In this document: one piece after another, positions 18,959 through 23,998 of the stretch
How the letters are laid out: each line of letters opens with the position of its first letter
Position numbering within the stretch: the first letter of the stretch is position 1
Source of the DNA: Microbacterium stercoris
Lineage (GTDB): Bacteria; Actinomycetota; Actinomycetes; Actinomycetales; Microbacteriaceae
Reading direction: 5' to 3'
Length of the DNA: 64,000 nucleotides
NCBI RefSeq assembly: GCF_017592545.1
Contig: NZ_JAGFOA010000002.1
Span: forward strand, 663,924-727,923
The notes under the pieces: model-generated
Told to the model about the DNA's origin: nothing
Databases searched by the model: none
Seen by the model: only the letters and a program-made list of their open reading frames with translations
Program-made: the position numbers and the translations under genes

Positions 18959-19657
18959 TCACAGACCGGCGGCGAGGCGTTGTTTGTTACGGGGCGCGTC
19001 GTCATCGGGCGCGGCCGACATGATCCGGCCGTCTCTCAGGTGCACAACGCGATCCGCTGCCGCGATGGCCGCGTCGTCGTGCGTCACGCAGCCGACGGCG
19101 GCTCCGCGGCGCGCCTCCTCGGCGAGGAGGGCCTGCGTGATCTCCCGGCTGCGGTGGTCCAGACCGGCCGCAGGCTCGTCCAGCAGCAGGATCCCCGGTC
19201 GCCCGACGAGGGCCTGCGCGATCAGGGCGCGCTGACGCTGGCCGCCGGAGAGGTCCGCGAAGGGGCGCCCCTCGAGCCCGGCCAGCCCGACCCGCTCGAT
19301 CGCCTGGGCGATCGCGGCGCGCCGCGAGGCGCGCGTCGGTCGCGGTCTGTAGCCGGCGCGTGGGCGTCGCCAGGTGCCCATCGCCACGGTGTCGGCGACG
19401 GTCACGGGAAGGGTGTCGGGCGCGTCCGGGCGCTGGACGACGAGTGCGACCTCGGCGGAGCGGATGACGCGACCGGAGCGGGGTACACGGACGCCGGCGA
19501 GCAGCTCCAGGAGCGTCGACTTGCCTGATCCGTTGGGCCCGGCCAGTACGGTCACCTCGCCGAACGGGAGACGGACGGAGACGTTGTGCAGGACGTCCTG
19601 CGCGGTGTAGCCGAAGCAGACGGATTGAGCGAGAACGGCATCACGGGGGGAGGACAC
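18959..19657 (-). CDS. aztA: Zinc ABC transporter ATP-binding protein AztA
   Basis: The 232-residue ATPase of a zinc importer, working on the inner face of the membrane with AztB. Walker A AGPNGSGKST is at about 39-48, the signature LSGGQRQRA at about 145-153, Walker B ILLLDEP at about 163-169, and the switch His in CVTHDD near 198. The start is GTG, seven bases after a minus-strand TATAGT, which points to a leaderless mRNA. It is divergent from aztB, with only 55 bases between the start codons, and a shared metal-regulator box lies in that gap. The assignment to zinc rests on the neighbouring AztC- and AztD-type proteins. Confidence 0.85.
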   Translation of the reverse strand: MSSPRDAVLAQSVCFGYTAQDVLHNVSVRLPFGEVTVLAGPNGSGKSTLLELLAGVRVPRSGRVIRSAEVALVVQRPDAPDTLPVTVADTVAMGTWRRPRAGYRPRPTRASRRAAIAQAIERVGLAGLEGRPFADLSGGQRQRALIAQALVGRPGILLLDEPAAGLDHRSREITQALLAEEARRGAAVGCVTHDDAAIAAADRVVHLRDGRIMSAAPDDDAPRNKQRLAAGL

Positions 19658-19664
19658 TCCGCCG

Positions 19665-19670
19665 ACTATA
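19665..19670 (-). promoter_or_regulatory. -10 hexamer of the aztA promoter
   Basis: TATAGT on the minus strand ends seven bases before the aztA GTG. The corresponding -35 region lies inside the Zur-like dyad. Confidence 0.5.
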
Positions 19671-19674
19671 GCAA

Positions 19675-19704
19675 TTGATAATCATTCTCATATTCACCTA
19701 GACT
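19675..19704 (+). promoter_or_regulatory. aztB promoter, leaderless
   Basis: TTGATA, an 18-base spacer and TAGACT make a good vegetative promoter. The -10 ends eight bases before the aztB ATG, so the mRNA should start at or just before the ATG. The -35 overlaps the left arm of the Zur-like dyad. Confidence 0.6.
19676..19690. promoter_or_regulatory. Fur/Zur-type operator shared by aztA and aztB
   Basis: TGATAATCATTCTCA is a 7-1-7 inverted repeat with one mismatch, the architecture of Fur-superfamily boxes. It overlaps the aztB -35 element and the -35 region of aztA. Because the genes encode a zinc importer, the zinc repressor Zur is the likely ligand. One dimer or dimer pair bound here would block both promoters when zinc is plentiful. 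Confidence 0.7.
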
Positions 19705-19712
19705 CCCCAACC

Positions 19713-20585
19713 ATGCCCCCCTTCCTCGCATGGTTCGCCGCGCCCTTCAGCGCCGATTTTGTGCTGCGCGCTCTGCTCGGCGGCGCCCTCGTCGCCGTCA
19801 TCTGCGCCGTCGTGGGCACCTGGGTGATCATCCGCGGCATGGCCTTCCTGGGGGAGGCTATCGGGCACGGCATGCTCCCCGGGGTCGCCGTCGCGACGGT
19901 GACCGGCGCACCCGCCGTCCTCGGCGCGGCCGCCAGCGCGATCGCCATGAGCGCCGCGATCGGGGCGCTGCAGCGGCGCGGTCGCCTGACCTACGACACG
20001 AGCATCGGTCTGCTGTTCGTCGGGATGCTCTCGCTCGGGGTCATCATCGTGTCCCACTCGCGCAGCTTCGCCACGGACGCCACCACGATCCTGTTCGGGG
20101 ACATCCTCGCGATCGGCGGGGGCGACATCCTGCTGCTCGCCGTCGCCGCCGTGGTGACGATCGCGCTCGCCGCGGTCTTCCACCGCTCCTTCGTCGCGGC
20201 CGCCTTCGACCGGCGGATCGCGCAGGCGCTCGGCCTGCGACCCCAGTTGGCACAGATCGTGCTGACCGGTCTCGTCACCCTCGCCGTGGTCGCCTCCTAC
20301 CAGGCGGTGGGCTCGCTGCTCGTGGTCGGTCTGCTGCTCGGCCCCGCCGTGGCGGCCCGGACCTGGACGACGCGCATCGCCCCCACCATGCTGCTCGCCG
20401 CGGCCTGCGGCACTGCCGCGGTGGTCGCGGGGCTGCTCGTCTCGTGGCACGCAGGCACCGCGGCCGGCGCCTCCATCGCGTGCTGCGCGATCCTCCTCAC
20501 CGCGATCTCCGCCGTGGTGCGAGGGGGCATCCGCCGTGCCCGTCACGGGGCGGGTCATACCCCGCCGGTGGCGGCCCTGCGATGA
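19713..20585 (+). CDS. aztB: Zinc ABC transporter permease AztB
   Basis: A 290-residue ABC-3 family (ZnuB/TroC-type) permease with about eight membrane helices. The family motif around GMAFLGEAIGHGMLPGVAVA at about 38-57 and the cytoplasmic coupling region FDRRIAQALGLRP at about 167-179 are present. It forms the membrane channel with AztA. The ATG sits eight bases after a -10 hexamer with no ribosome site, hence leaderless. Four genes follow on the same strand with stop/start overlaps or short gaps, forming the operon aztB - propeller lipoprotein - aztC - aztD. Confidence 0.88.
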   Translation: MPPFLAWFAAPFSADFVLRALLGGALVAVICAVVGTWVIIRGMAFLGEAIGHGMLPGVAVATVTGAPAVLGAAASAIAMSAAIGALQRRGRLTYDTSIGLLFVGMLSLGVIIVSHSRSFATDATTILFGDILAIGGGDILLLAVAAVVTIALAAVFHRSFVAAAFDRRIAQALGLRPQLAQIVLTGLVTLAVVASYQAVGSLLVVGLLLGPAVAARTWTTRIAPTMLLAAACGTAAVVAGLLVSWHAGTAAGASIACCAILLTAISAVVRGGIRRARHGAGHTPPVAALR

Positions 20586-20626
20586 CCCCCGCGACGACGC
20601 CCCTGATCACCCCTCGAAAGGAACTG

Positions 20627-21832
20627 ATGTCCCCCCGACGCCCCCTCCTGATCGTCTCCGGCACCCTGCTGCTCGCCGCGCTCGCCGGATGCTCATCGAC
20701 CGCCGGCCAGGGGGCCGCCTCGGCCGCGCCCGAGGAGCCCTCCGCCGGTCACGGCGCGATCACGGGTGCCGCCGAGGTCGCCGAGCCGCCCCTGCAGCTG
20801 GTGTCGATCAATGCTCAGGGCGCGGTCGGCTCGCTCGACCTCCTCGACGGTTCCGAGGCCGAGCTCGGGGCGATCGAGGCTCCGCGCTCCACGGCCACCG
20901 ATGGCCGCTACGTGTTCGCGGAGACAGACGGCGCCGTGACGGTCATCGACAGCGGCGTGTGGACCTGGGACCACGTCGACCACTTCCACTACTACCGATC
21001 AGAGCCGTCGATCCTGGGCGAGGTGCCGGGGGAGGGGCCCGTGAGCGTCTCGACGGGGGCGCTCTCCACCGCCGGCGCCACCGGCCTGTTCTTCGCCGGC
21101 TCGGGCGAGGCCGTGCTGCTGGACAATGCCGAGCTGTCCCGTGGCCGCATCGTGGAGACCCTGCGCGTGCGGACGGGAGCGCCGAACGGGGTGATCGCCC
21201 CGCTCGGCGATGGCGCGCTCGTCAGCGACGCCGACGGCGGTCTCGCCTTCCACGACGCCGCCGGCGGACCGGTCCCCGGCGCGCCGTGCACGGCGCCGTC
21301 CGGATCCATCACCACGCGCGCCGGCCTCGTTGTGGGCTGCGAGGAGGGCGCCGTGGTGGCGCGCATCGAGCGCGACGAGCCCGTCTTCGAGACGATCCCG
21401 TACCCGGTCGGCGCCACGGCCGAGCGTGCGATGTCCTTCGACGCGCGGAAGGGAAGGCCGACCGTGGCGGCCGTCGCGGGCGATCGGGGATTCTGGCTGC
21501 TGGATGTGCGCGAGCGCGCATGGCAGCTGATCGACACCCCCGTGCCGCTCGCGCGCGTGGTGGCGTCCGACGACGCCGACGGCAGCGTCGTCGCGCTCGA
21601 CGAATCCGGTCGCGTGCACGTGTACGGCGCGAGCGGGGAGGAGCGCGCGGCGACCGCGCCGCTCGTCGAGGTCGCCGCGGGCGTCACCCTGTCGGTCGAC
21701 GCGCAGCGGGCGTACCTCAACGACCCGGCCGCGGGGGTTGTGCACGAGATCGCCTACGCCGACGGGGCGCGCATCGCGCGGACCCTCGCCACGCCGACCG
21801 TCCCCACGTTCTTCGCCGAGGTGGGTCGATGA
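20627..21832 (+). CDS. AztD-like predicted beta-propeller lipoprotein of the zinc locus
   Basis: A 401-residue exported protein. Residues 1-21 are a lipoprotein signal ending in the lipobox LAGC, followed by an Ala/Glu/Gly-rich linker. The rest is a string of short beta-repeats of the WD40/YVTN type (SLDLLDGSEAELGAIE, TDGRYVFAETDGAVTVID, AFHDAAGGPVPG, LLDVRERAWQLIDTP), predicted to form a propeller. HVDHFHYY at about 115-122 has three histidines and could bind metal. It is paralogue-like to AztD at the end of the operon but has a different His distribution. The ATG with an AAAGGA site was preferred over one at 20582 because it starts directly at the signal peptide. Role inferred: zinc capture or transfer to AztC. 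Confidence 0.78.
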   Translation: MSPRRPLLIVSGTLLLAALAGCSSTAGQGAASAAPEEPSAGHGAITGAAEVAEPPLQLVSINAQGAVGSLDLLDGSEAELGAIEAPRSTATDGRYVFAETDGAVTVIDSGVWTWDHVDHFHYYRSEPSILGEVPGEGPVSVSTGALSTAGATGLFFAGSGEAVLLDNAELSRGRIVETLRVRTGAPNGVIAPLGDGALVSDADGGLAFHDAAGGPVPGAPCTAPSGSITTRAGLVVGCEEGAVVARIERDEPVFETIPYPVGATAERAMSFDARKGRPTVAAVAGDRGFWLLDVRERAWQLIDTPVPLARVVASDDADGSVVALDESGRVHVYGASGEERAATAPLVEVAAGVTLSVDAQRAYLNDPAAGVVHEIAYADGARIARTLATPTVPTFFAEVGR

Positions 21833-22773
21833 GCCCCGCTCCGCGCCGCCTCGCGCGCGCCGCCGTGCCGGTGCGCATCGCGGCCCTCGCGGCGTGCGTT
21901 CTCGCGCTCGCCGGCTGCGGCGTCCCCGCGCGCGACGGCGAGCAGATCCGGATCGTGGTGACCACGAACATCCTCGGCGACGTGGTCGAGAACATCGTGG
22001 GCGACGAGGCGGATGTGCGCGTCCTCATGCGACCGAACGCCGATCCGCACTCGTTCGAGATCTCGGCGCAGGAGGCGGCTGAGCTCGGCGCCGCCGACCT
22101 CCTCGTCTCCAACGGGCTCGGGCTCGAGGAGGGCCTCGCCCAGCACCTCGAGCGAGCGGTCGCGGCGGGCGCCACGCCGTTCGTCGCGGGGGACGTCATC
22201 GAGGTGCTGCCCTACAGCGAGGAGCAGGCCGATGGCGCGGACGATCCGCACTTCTGGACCGATCCGGAGCGTATGCGCGACGTCGTGGACGGGCTCGAGG
22301 AGGCCCTCGTGGCGCTCGACGGGATCGACGCGCCCGCCGTGCGCGCGGGTGCGGACGCCTATCGGCAGGAGCTCGCGGATCTCGACGCCGAGATGAGCGA
22401 GCGGTTCGCCGCGATCGACGACGAGCGCCGCGCCCTCGTGACCAACCACCACGTCTTCGGCTACCTCGCCGACCGCTTCGACTTCCGCGTCGTCGGTGCG
22501 GTCATCCCCGGTGGCACCACGCTCGCCGCGCCCAGCGCGGCGGACCTGCGCGACCTGGCCGCGGCGATCGAGGACGCCGGGGTGCCCACGATCTTCGCCG
22601 AGTCCTCCCAGCCCGACCGCCTTGTGCAGGCGCTCGCGAGCGAGGTGGGGATCGACATCCAGGTGGTGGAGCTCTACACGGAGTCGCTCACCGAGCCCGG
22701 AGAGGGCGCCGACACCTATCTGACGATGATGCGCGCGAACACCGAGCGCATCGCACAGGGCCTCAGCCGATGA
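21829..22773 (+). CDS. aztC: Zinc ABC transporter substrate-binding protein AztC
   Basis: A 314-residue extracytoplasmic metal-binding lipoprotein of the cluster A-I (ZnuA/TroA) family. Its signal peptide ends in LAGC (Cys30). Candidate zinc ligands are His74 in DPHSFE, His141 in DDPHFW and His207/208 in TNHHVFG, plus an acidic residue in the C-terminal lobe. The usual long His-rich loop is replaced by a short acidic stretch (about 130-140), as known for AztC rather than ZnuA. The start overlaps the stop of the preceding lipoprotein gene (ATGA). It delivers Zn2+ to AztAB and is thought to be loaded by AztD. Confidence 0.87.
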   Translation: MSPAPRRLARAAVPVRIAALAACVLALAGCGVPARDGEQIRIVVTTNILGDVVENIVGDEADVRVLMRPNADPHSFEISAQEAAELGAADLLVSNGLGLEEGLAQHLERAVAAGATPFVAGDVIEVLPYSEEQADGADDPHFWTDPERMRDVVDGLEEALVALDGIDAPAVRAGADAYRQELADLDAEMSERFAAIDDERRALVTNHHVFGYLADRFDFRVVGAVIPGGTTLAAPSAADLRDLAAAIEDAGVPTIFAESSQPDRLVQALASEVGIDIQVVELYTESLTEPGEGADTYLTMMRANTERIAQGLSR

Positions 22774-22795
22774 GGCCACCCATGAAAGGAAAACG

Positions 22796-23998
22796 ATGAA
22801 GAGACATACGCGACTGATCGCCGCGGCGGCCGCACTCGCGGGGGCGGCGCTGGTCACAACGGCCTGCGCGAGTCCGCCCGCCGCGCCCGGCGCGAGCGGC
22901 ACGAGCGCCCCGAAGGCCGAGGCCCCGGCCGAGGGCCGGGTCGCCGTCGCCTACGAGAACGGCATCGCGGTGCTCGATCCGCAGACGCTCGAGGTGGTCG
23001 GCGAGGTCGCCACGGAGGCGTTCACGCGCCTGAATCCGTTCGGCGACGGGCGGCACATCGCCGTCACCACCTCGCAGGGATTCCAGCTGCTCGACACCGC
23101 GGCGCCCGAGCTGACCGACCTCGTGTTCGGCGCCACGACCCCCGGGCACGTCGTCATCCATCACGGCCGCACCGTGCTGTTCGACGACGGCACCGGAACG
23201 ACGACCATCGTCGACACCGACGCGATCGAGCCCGGCGCCACCGAGCTGCCCGAGACCGAGACGTACGCGGCGGATGCGGCCCACCACGGCGTCTCGATCG
23301 TGCTGGAGGACGGCACCCTGCTCACCACGGTGGGCGACGAGACCGGACGCACCGGCGCCGTGGCGCTGCACGCCCACGACGACCACTGGGACGAGGCGGC
23401 GTCGAGCGACGCCTGCCCGGGCATCCACGGCGAGGGGACCGCGGCCGACGAGGTCGCCGTGTTCGGCTGCGAGAACGGCGCGCTCCTCTACAAGGACGGC
23501 GGCTTCGTGAAGCTGACCGCTCCGGACGAATACGGCCGTATGGGCAACGCCTACGTGTCGGAGACGAGCCCGATCGTCGTGGGCGACTACAAGAGCGATC
23601 CCGACGCCGAGGGCTACCTGCTCGGGGCGGTCACGCTCATCGACACGGCGGCCGAGACCCTCGAGGTGGTCGAGCTTCCGGACGACGTGCGTTTCACGTA
23701 CCGCGACGTGGCGCGCGGGCCCGAGGACCTGGCGTACATTCTCGCGACCGACGGCGCGATCCACGTGCTGGACCCCGCCACGGGTGAGCTCGTGGATGCC
23801 TTCGACGTGATCGACCCCTGGGAGGGACCGGCCGAGTGGCAGGATCCGCACCCGTCGATCAAGGTCGCCGGCGACATCGCCTACGTGACCGAGCCGTCGA
23901 GCAACGCCGTCCACGCGATCGATCTCACCACGGGCGAGACCGTCGCGAGCGTCGAGCTCGACGCGGCTCCGAACGAGCTCGCCGTGGCGCTCGGCTGA
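22796..23998 (+). CDS. aztD: Zinc metallochaperone AztD
   Basis: A 400-residue exported propeller-like protein matching the AztD family, which binds zinc outside the membrane and passes it to AztC. A signal peptide with a probable lipidated Cys (VTTAC, about 21-25) is followed by a Pro/Ala linker. Typical repeats are AYENGIAVLDPQTLEVVGE, GAVTLIDTAAETLEVVELP, GAIHVLDPATGELVDAFDV and NAVHAIDLTTGETVASVEL. His-containing loops include VVIHHGR, ALHAHDDHWDE, GIHGEG and DPHPSIK; the HAHDDH cluster at about 192-197 is the best metal-site candidate. A GGAAA ribosome site precedes the ATG. It is the last gene of the operon and is followed by a GC-rich hairpin. Confidence 0.82.
   Translation: MKRHTRLIAAAAALAGAALVTTACASPPAAPGASGTSAPKAEAPAEGRVAVAYENGIAVLDPQTLEVVGEVATEAFTRLNPFGDGRHIAVTTSQGFQLLDTAAPELTDLVFGATTPGHVVIHHGRTVLFDDGTGTTTIVDTDAIEPGATELPETETYAADAAHHGVSIVLEDGTLLTTVGDETGRTGAVALHAHDDHWDEAASSDACPGIHGEGTAADEVAVFGCENGALLYKDGGFVKLTAPDEYGRMGNAYVSETSPIVVGDYKSDPDAEGYLLGAVTLIDTAAETLEVVELPDDVRFTYRDVARGPEDLAYILATDGAIHVLDPATGELVDAFDVIDPWEGPAEWQDPHPSIKVAGDIAYVTEPSSNAVHAIDLTTGETVASVELDAAPNELAVALG

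Follow-up and report, generated by a model that had tools for sequence, protein, structure and literature searches.

The 64 kb window analysed here, a stretch of 64,000 nucleotides from Microbacterium stercoris (contig NZ_JAGFOA010000002.1, positions 663,924 to 727,923), carries an AztABCD zinc-uptake locus that encodes two propeller lipoproteins with the importer. AztA, AztB, AztC and AztD of this single locus all exceed their curated NCBIfam cut-offs (Table 1). The divergent aztA is followed by aztB, a gene for a second propeller lipoprotein that we call P2, aztC and aztD, an order and set of coordinates that a preliminary description of the sequence had already given, and the P2 stop codon and the aztC start overlap as ATGA. 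That description had also placed a second propeller-like lipoprotein of similar size between aztB and aztC, and this holds: P2 has 401 residues, to be set beside the 400 of AztD, and an AztD-type propeller is predicted for it. In alignments an invariant cysteine stands at the expected lipid-anchor place in all three lipoproteins (C22, C24 and C30). We take these cysteines to be lipobox sites of lipid attachment.

The reference for this locus is Paracoccus denitrificans, whose single AztD (PdAztD) has a pore site formed by H124, H167 and H218 (site 1) and a hairpin site formed by H99, H102 and D104 together with the C-terminal H408, a residue present in 68.1% of homologues (site 2; PMC6689063). 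In vitro, zinc reaches AztC only from site 2 and a mutant without site 2 fails to transfer; the role of the highly conserved site 1 is left open there (PMC6689063). Sequence comparison indicates that in many actinobacteria these two putative zinc sites are split over two related proteins of the same zinc-uptake operon, P2 having site 2 and the product of the gene annotated as aztD having site 1.

Table 1. Genes and features of the azt locus, in positions of the window
Feature	Position	Strand	Basis or remark
aztA, ATP-binding subunit of zinc ATP-binding cassette (ABC) importer	18959..19657	-	divergent from other azt genes; NCBIfam NF040873, 222 bits, cut-off 220
Zur-box-like palindrome TGATAATCATTCTCA	19676..19690	.	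in the 55-base aztA-aztB gap
aztB, permease	19713..20585	+	NF040871, 342.7 bits, cut-off 280
P2, second propeller lipoprotein, 401 residues	20627..21832	+	NF038015, 46.2 bits; fold; own tree clade
His42 codon, N-terminal HG motif of P2	20750..20752	+	invariant, 81/81
Site-2 hairpin of P2, W112-Y123 WTWDHVDHFHYY; ligands H116, H119, H121	20960..20995	+	phmmer alignment, model
C221 and C238 of P2, counterpart of AztD disulfide	21287..21340 (first, last codon)	+	invariant, 81/81
aztC, zinc-binding lipoprotein of importer	21829..22773	+	NF040870, 382 bits, cut-off 350
Annotated aztD, propeller lipoprotein, 400 residues	22796..23998	+	NF038015, 446.1 bits, cut-off 400; fold
Site-1 ligands of AztD: H118 (23147-23149), H164 (23285-23287), H211 (23426-23428)	within 23147..23428	+
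HAHDDHWD loop of AztD, residues 192-199	23369..23392	+	between predicted strands 184-193 and 198-204

Two propeller proteins and their predicted metal sites

Kinship between P2 and AztD is visible only by profile and by fold. A direct BLAST comparison of P2 with the AztD of the window gave no usable match (E 0.15), and a Pfam search of P2 with E up to 1 returned no family. The AztD model NF038015, a search that the preliminary description had proposed, does match P2 over most of its length, weakly (46.2 bits, E 2.5e-12) and below the cut-off of 400 that the annotated AztD exceeds. An AlphaFold2 model of P2 built from an 81-sequence alignment is a confident propeller, with a mean predicted local distance difference test (pLDDT) score of 92.1 and a predicted TM-score of 0.87, and the first-ranked Foldseek match is an AztD chain (6cmk_A, E 7.3e-20). 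Superposed on the AztD structures of Citrobacter koseri and P. denitrificans, the model aligns over 346-347 residues with Z 34.9 and a root-mean-square deviation of 2.7-3.0, the next family being cd1 nitrite reductase at Z 22.8. The model of the annotated AztD (mean pLDDT 88.6) reaches Z 38.6 to 6ck1, which is PdAztD, with cd1 nitrite reductase again next at 26.0. Structure prediction of both proteins, another of the proposed checks, therefore returns two AztD-type propellers whose best Protein Data Bank matches are AztD, and P2 is, judged by profile and predicted fold, a deep AztD paralogue.

Comparison with the solved AztD chains 6ck1, 6cmk and 6n01 shows the propeller fold and the cysteine pair as common ground, with site 2 recognisable in P2 and site 1 in the AztD of the window. 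In phmmer alignments the HVDHFH of P2 (residues 116-121) pairs with H99-G-D-H102-R-D104 of PdAztD, and the model contains an extra hairpin, strands 111-115 and 120-125, with the site-2 motif between them. The HVDHFHYY motif that the preliminary description had put at about residues 115-122 lies at 116-123. P2 differs from the solved chains in that the third ligand is His in place of Asp104, as in actinobacterial two-site AztD, and in lacking the three pore histidines: serine, asparagine and serine stand in the window at the places of PdAztD H124, H167 and H218. The protein ends in GR in 81 of the 81 P2 rows of the alignment (A1), leaving no counterpart of H408.

The invariant His42 of the HG motif, the residue at which the structural alignment of P2 with 6ck1 begins, may act as a fourth site-2 ligand that replaces the missing C-terminal one. 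Beyond those 81 sequences, the HG motif is missing in loci L091, L149 and L150 and in four distant two-site P2-type proteins (L093, L095, L096 and L119). A tie between the loss of His42 and the absence of aztABC, which L149 and L150 had suggested, proved weak, L091 lacking His42 yet having azt genes.

The annotated AztD presents the reverse picture. Its H118, H164 and H211 pair by phmmer with PdAztD H124, H167 and H218, and the histidines conserved in the 81-sequence AztD alignment are H118, H163-H164 and H211. Unlike the solved chains it has no site-2 hairpin; the model passes from strand 95-100 to strand 105-112 with nothing extra between them. The preliminary description had assigned to AztD an HAHDDH motif, and this is indeed found at residues 192-197, but as a conserved AztD site it is rejected by the alignment, in which H192 is kept in 12% of the 81 sequences and an H-x-D-H-W-[DH] loop occupies that position in 15 of 81. 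It is a lineage-specific loop, which precedes the site-1 segment with a spacing like that of the site-2 hairpin ligands, and in certain lineages it may be a surface zinc site of a new kind.

Distribution among actinobacterial genomes

The first comparison used named loci, the best 80 of 110 relatives plus the window, making 81, with Microbacterium, Leucobacter, Dietzia, Rhodococcus, Nocardioides, Arthrobacter, Clavibacter, Rathayibacter, Kineosporia and other actinobacteria among them. P2 followed by aztC and aztD was found in 80 of the 80 relatives, far beyond chance; aztB is present in 77 and aztA in 76, the remaining loci starting too near P2 to include them. All three site-2 ligands are present in P2 at 81 of 81 loci, and of the site-1 ligands P2 retains none at 79 loci and one of three at two. 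The AztD counts mirror this, with site 1 complete in 81 of 81 and site 2 at 0/3 in 81 of 81 (the L014 AztD, which ends at a contig edge, is in the conservation and ligand counts and not in the folded alignment). The preliminary description had let its case depend on P2 being a propeller, carrying a His cluster and being linked to azt genes; P2 is a predicted propeller, its His cluster is conserved and it is linked to azt genes.

One of the six search peptides, WTWDHVDH, contained the site-2 motif, and the constancy of site 2 across these 80 loci therefore owes something to the way in which they were chosen. For this reason the survey was repeated with profiles, which are free of that bias. In a phylum sample of 396 genomes the P2 profiles matched 18 and the AztD profiles 20; all ten genomes with a separate P2 and an AztD are split (10/10), four of which are also in the order sample, while G260 (short frame, 2/3 + 1/3) and G008 (broken frame, 3/3 + 2/3) fit no clean class. 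In an order sample, also of 396 genomes, AztD profiles matched 197; the P2 profiles matched 106, mostly through AztD itself. Among the matches listed, those above 180 bits that did not coincide with AztD were counted as a separate P2, and on this definition 37 genomes have one, of which 36 also have AztD. Four weaker separate matches of the P2 profile (L162-L165) are two-site AztD-type proteins.

Among the 36 genomes with both proteins, eight are unsplit (L152-L159): both paralogues lie in the azt operon and both sites are found on each (seven distinct P2 and eight AztD examined, one P2 duplicate having been dropped). Outside these operons all 28 readable P2, G735 and the window included, have three of three site-2 ligands and none of three site-1 ligands, and 28 of 28 AztD keep site 1, with site 2 at 0/3 in 27 and 1/3 in one. 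The P2 of G447 is interrupted by a contig end and is unclassified, L133, L138 and L141 are duplicates counted under L084-L086 and L099-L101, and the AztD frame of G773, which contains one stop, was taken unchanged. Genome G735 (L160, L291) has the arrangement aztB-P2-aztC with no aztD detected, the sole such case of the 37 among the matches listed.

AztD copies that have no P2 partner offer the comparison. Of the 197 order-sample genomes with AztD, the 36 paired cases and 112 other copies were classified among the matches listed, L107 and L108 being handled with the phylum sample. Both sites are present in 110 of the 112 unpaired copies, 92 of which were examined as the gene plus about 300 bases on each side. 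Such actinobacterial two-site proteins (for example L107, L108, L110 and L166-L185) belong to the same family and have mostly an HGDHxH site 2 with the three site-1 histidines, and differ from the AztD of the window in having no P2 partner; in five of the 20 loci L166-L185 (L176-L178, L181 and L182) the stretch contains a weaker match to an AztC/ZnuA-type binding protein. The two states coexist in genome G618, where a split pair adjoins azt genes and another AztD, with two sites, lies at a different place. Proteobacterial plasmid AztD from Shinella, Paracoccus, Phyllobacterium, Salipiger and Sinorhizobium likewise have both sites. The two exceptions among the 112, G600 and G640 (L225 and L231, of the same genus code), retain just site 1, and no P2 was detected in either genome, an instance of site-2 loss in the absence of P2.

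Taken together, paralogy, predicted fold, reciprocal loss of sites and gene linkage indicate that this AztABCD variant is real and conserved. Current annotation of such loci suggests itself as misleading, the gene named aztD being without the known AztC-loading site and the holder of that site being called hypothetical. On a Streptomyces clavuligerus plasmid (L120:2300-3661), for example, the P2 between aztB and aztC (WP_003952949.1) is annotated 'hypothetical protein' and its site-1-only neighbour zinc metallochaperone AztD. In the open-licence literature, as far as titles and the starts of abstracts go, we found no earlier report of a second AztD-type propeller or of a split of the sites.

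A unit of P2 and aztD with no adjacent aztABC was also seen, in two genomes of the same genus as the window (G627 and G755; L186:6565-10510, and L187:8025-9414 with the next genes). There the two genes are divergent from genes for an M4 (thermolysin-type) metallopeptidase and an emfourin, and ZnuA-family genes lie elsewhere, two in G755 and one in G627.

History and possible roles of the two paralogues

A maximum-likelihood tree was built from 66 of 105 prepared sequences, with long-branch rows and near-copies omitted and the site columns removed, and was rooted on proteobacterial AztD. P2 and AztD form two actinobacterial lineages (support 99/92 and 95/91). All split P2 group in a single clade (100/98) whose sister is the unsplit P2 (100/97); four two-site P2-type proteins fall outside both, and a quick tree of all 105 rows gives the same groups with support of 89 for the P2 lineage. 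The simplest reading of these trees is that both sites are ancestral and that site 1 was lost once in P2, and site 2 could have been lost once or twice in AztD. A single loss there was tested: the tree requires two changes, yet one clade is not rejected (approximately unbiased test, p 0.306). In L093 (G223), AztA-, AztB- and AztC-type frames accompany one two-site P2-type propeller with a His-rich N-terminus, and the AztD profile matched only that same gene.

Complementary loss after duplication is a named evolutionary model, and the pattern of sites looks like it. A neutral form of this history, in which redundant paralogues came to do jointly the job of one AztD with no new property gained, is an account that we hold to be rather unlikely and that would be compatible with the functional division favoured below. 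The unsplit pairs, together with the shortened, ligand-poor hairpin remnants found in the AztD of L139, L140, L142 and L146-L148, resemble its stages, and in G600 and G640 site 2 has gone where no P2 was detected; but P2 features outside the sites, the HG motif and the C-terminal GR, are strictly conserved, which suggests that P2 has been selected for a role of its own. The unsplit pairs and the remnants make a readable series from two metal sites of one protein to two proteins.

As to function, the reading we favour, and hold to be probable, is that a two-site AztD chaperone has been divided, such that P2 loads AztC and AztD captures or buffers zinc, the zinc roles being those we infer from Paracoccus. 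The hairpin site 2 of P2 would bind zinc and hand it to AztC, and the pore site 1 of AztD would capture or buffer zinc at the cell surface. P2 is the most likely donor because it holds site 2, the sole transferring site in Paracoccus; capture or buffering is the most likely task of AztD because it is the counterpart of the site-2-less mutant that is unable to load AztC. Compared with the P. denitrificans AztABCD, the locus resembles it in AztA-D passing the NCBIfam cut-offs and in encoding an AztD-fold chaperone with the importer, and its Zur-box pattern may correspond to the Zur control of Paracoccus; it differs in having two propellers with one site each where Paracoccus has one two-site AztD, in a divergent aztA and in an AztC loop without the histidines that are needed there.

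Several observations weigh against this division of tasks. The third site-2 ligand of P2 is His and not Asp, and the C-terminal His is gone. The loop of AztC that carries three histidines in PdAztC, where they are required for transfer (PMC7463823), has no His in the window (residues 129-139) and none in 79 of 81 AztC, and docking must therefore differ in actinobacteria. The window's own AztD has the H-x-D-H-W-D loop, which could form a surface site not known before, and G600 and G640 have a site-1-only AztD with no P2 detected. The loss events are moreover few, so that the weight rests on conservation and not on many independent losses, and the sample counts come from related genomes. The exceptions G600, G640 and G735, the AztD loop and the negative relay test described below limit the mechanism and not the split itself. 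Coupling of the AztC-loop His loss to the split was examined and discarded: the unsplit loci L152, L153 and L155-L159 are likewise devoid of His in the segment from the conserved Tyr to PHFW. (A home-made AztC profile gave stray matches of 40-110 bits on AztD frames, which were discarded.)

We regard as rather unlikely an obligate relay, a more demanding version of the favoured reading, in which zinc in the AztD pore would be taken up by a docking P2 hairpin and then passed to AztC. In the crystal of C. koseri AztD, the site-2 element of each chain reaches into the pore of its neighbour and forms a hybrid two-zinc site (PMC6689063, PMC7463823), an arrangement that the split pair would embody naturally; P2 and AztD co-occur in 36 of the 37 order-sample genomes with a separate P2, among the matches listed, and G627 and G755 retain them side by side without adjacent aztABC. 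However, zinc-loaded site-2-less and apo site-1-less Paracoccus AztD showed no relay to AztC, and the authors judged the contact between chains to be most likely artefactual (PMC6689063), and G735 has P2 and aztC with no aztD detected. The more specific proposal, that at the surface the P2 hairpin enters the AztD pore, the C. koseri contact being a real mode that the actinobacterial division of sites has fixed, is doubtful.

Two parallel donors, with P2 and AztD each loading AztC and AztD using its pore site or the H-x-D-H-W-D loop, would provide redundancy or cover different zinc ranges. The loop of the window's AztD is like a site-2 hairpin, having H, H and D at the same spacing between predicted strands, but it is present in just 15 of 81 AztD and site 1 alone fails to load AztC in Paracoccus (PMC6689063), and we think this improbable.

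The preliminary description had pictured two complete chaperones with different metal sites feeding one AztC, in series from the cell wall to the membrane, or one of them acting as a sensor. Two exported propellers with different sites do share one operon, and this part of the proposal stands; the picture of two complete chaperones does not, neither protein being complete, and the sites, far from being unrelated, are the two of a single known AztD chaperone, site 2 on P2 and site 1 on AztD. Nothing supports a series running from the cell wall to the membrane, as all three proteins have the invariant cysteine at the lipid-anchor place. We accordingly consider the serial model, or the sensor model as judged from the locus, very improbable.

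In the favoured division of one chaperone into a P2 donor and an AztD buffer, each site has its own protein, and wild-type P2 and AztD would therefore let the roles of the sites be measured apart with no need for mutants. Accessory zinc proteins that serve a cluster A-I binding protein are familiar from ZinT/ZnuA and PhtD/AdcAII, for which homology to AztD is not known (PMC6689063); a division of two sites over paralogues was not found described for those systems in the literature consulted.

Zur-box pattern and probable regulation

The palindrome TGATAATCATTCTCA in the aztA-aztB gap matches the Streptomyces coelicolor Zur motif tGaNNatSatNNtCa (PMC5472717). The pattern TGANAAYNRTTNTCA has this as its sole site in the window, and across loci with both genes readable it is found in the aztA-aztB gap of 55 of 76, with no occurrence in 957,786 bases outside the gap; the strict form is absent in 21 of the 76 loci and a looser form is present in 64. 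The azt genes of Paracoccus are under Zur control (PMC6689063), and judging from the pattern, a shortage of zinc probably induces the present operon by way of Zur.

In the window's genome of 3.57 Mb the pattern occurs at two places, with none for a reversed-pattern control. At the second place a ZnuA-family match ends about 1.1 kb ahead of the pattern, and a Fur-family match follows 1.8 kb after it. Encoded in this region (C2:68523-72634; L189, L190, L292) are a second binding protein of the ZnuA family and a regulator of the Fur family.

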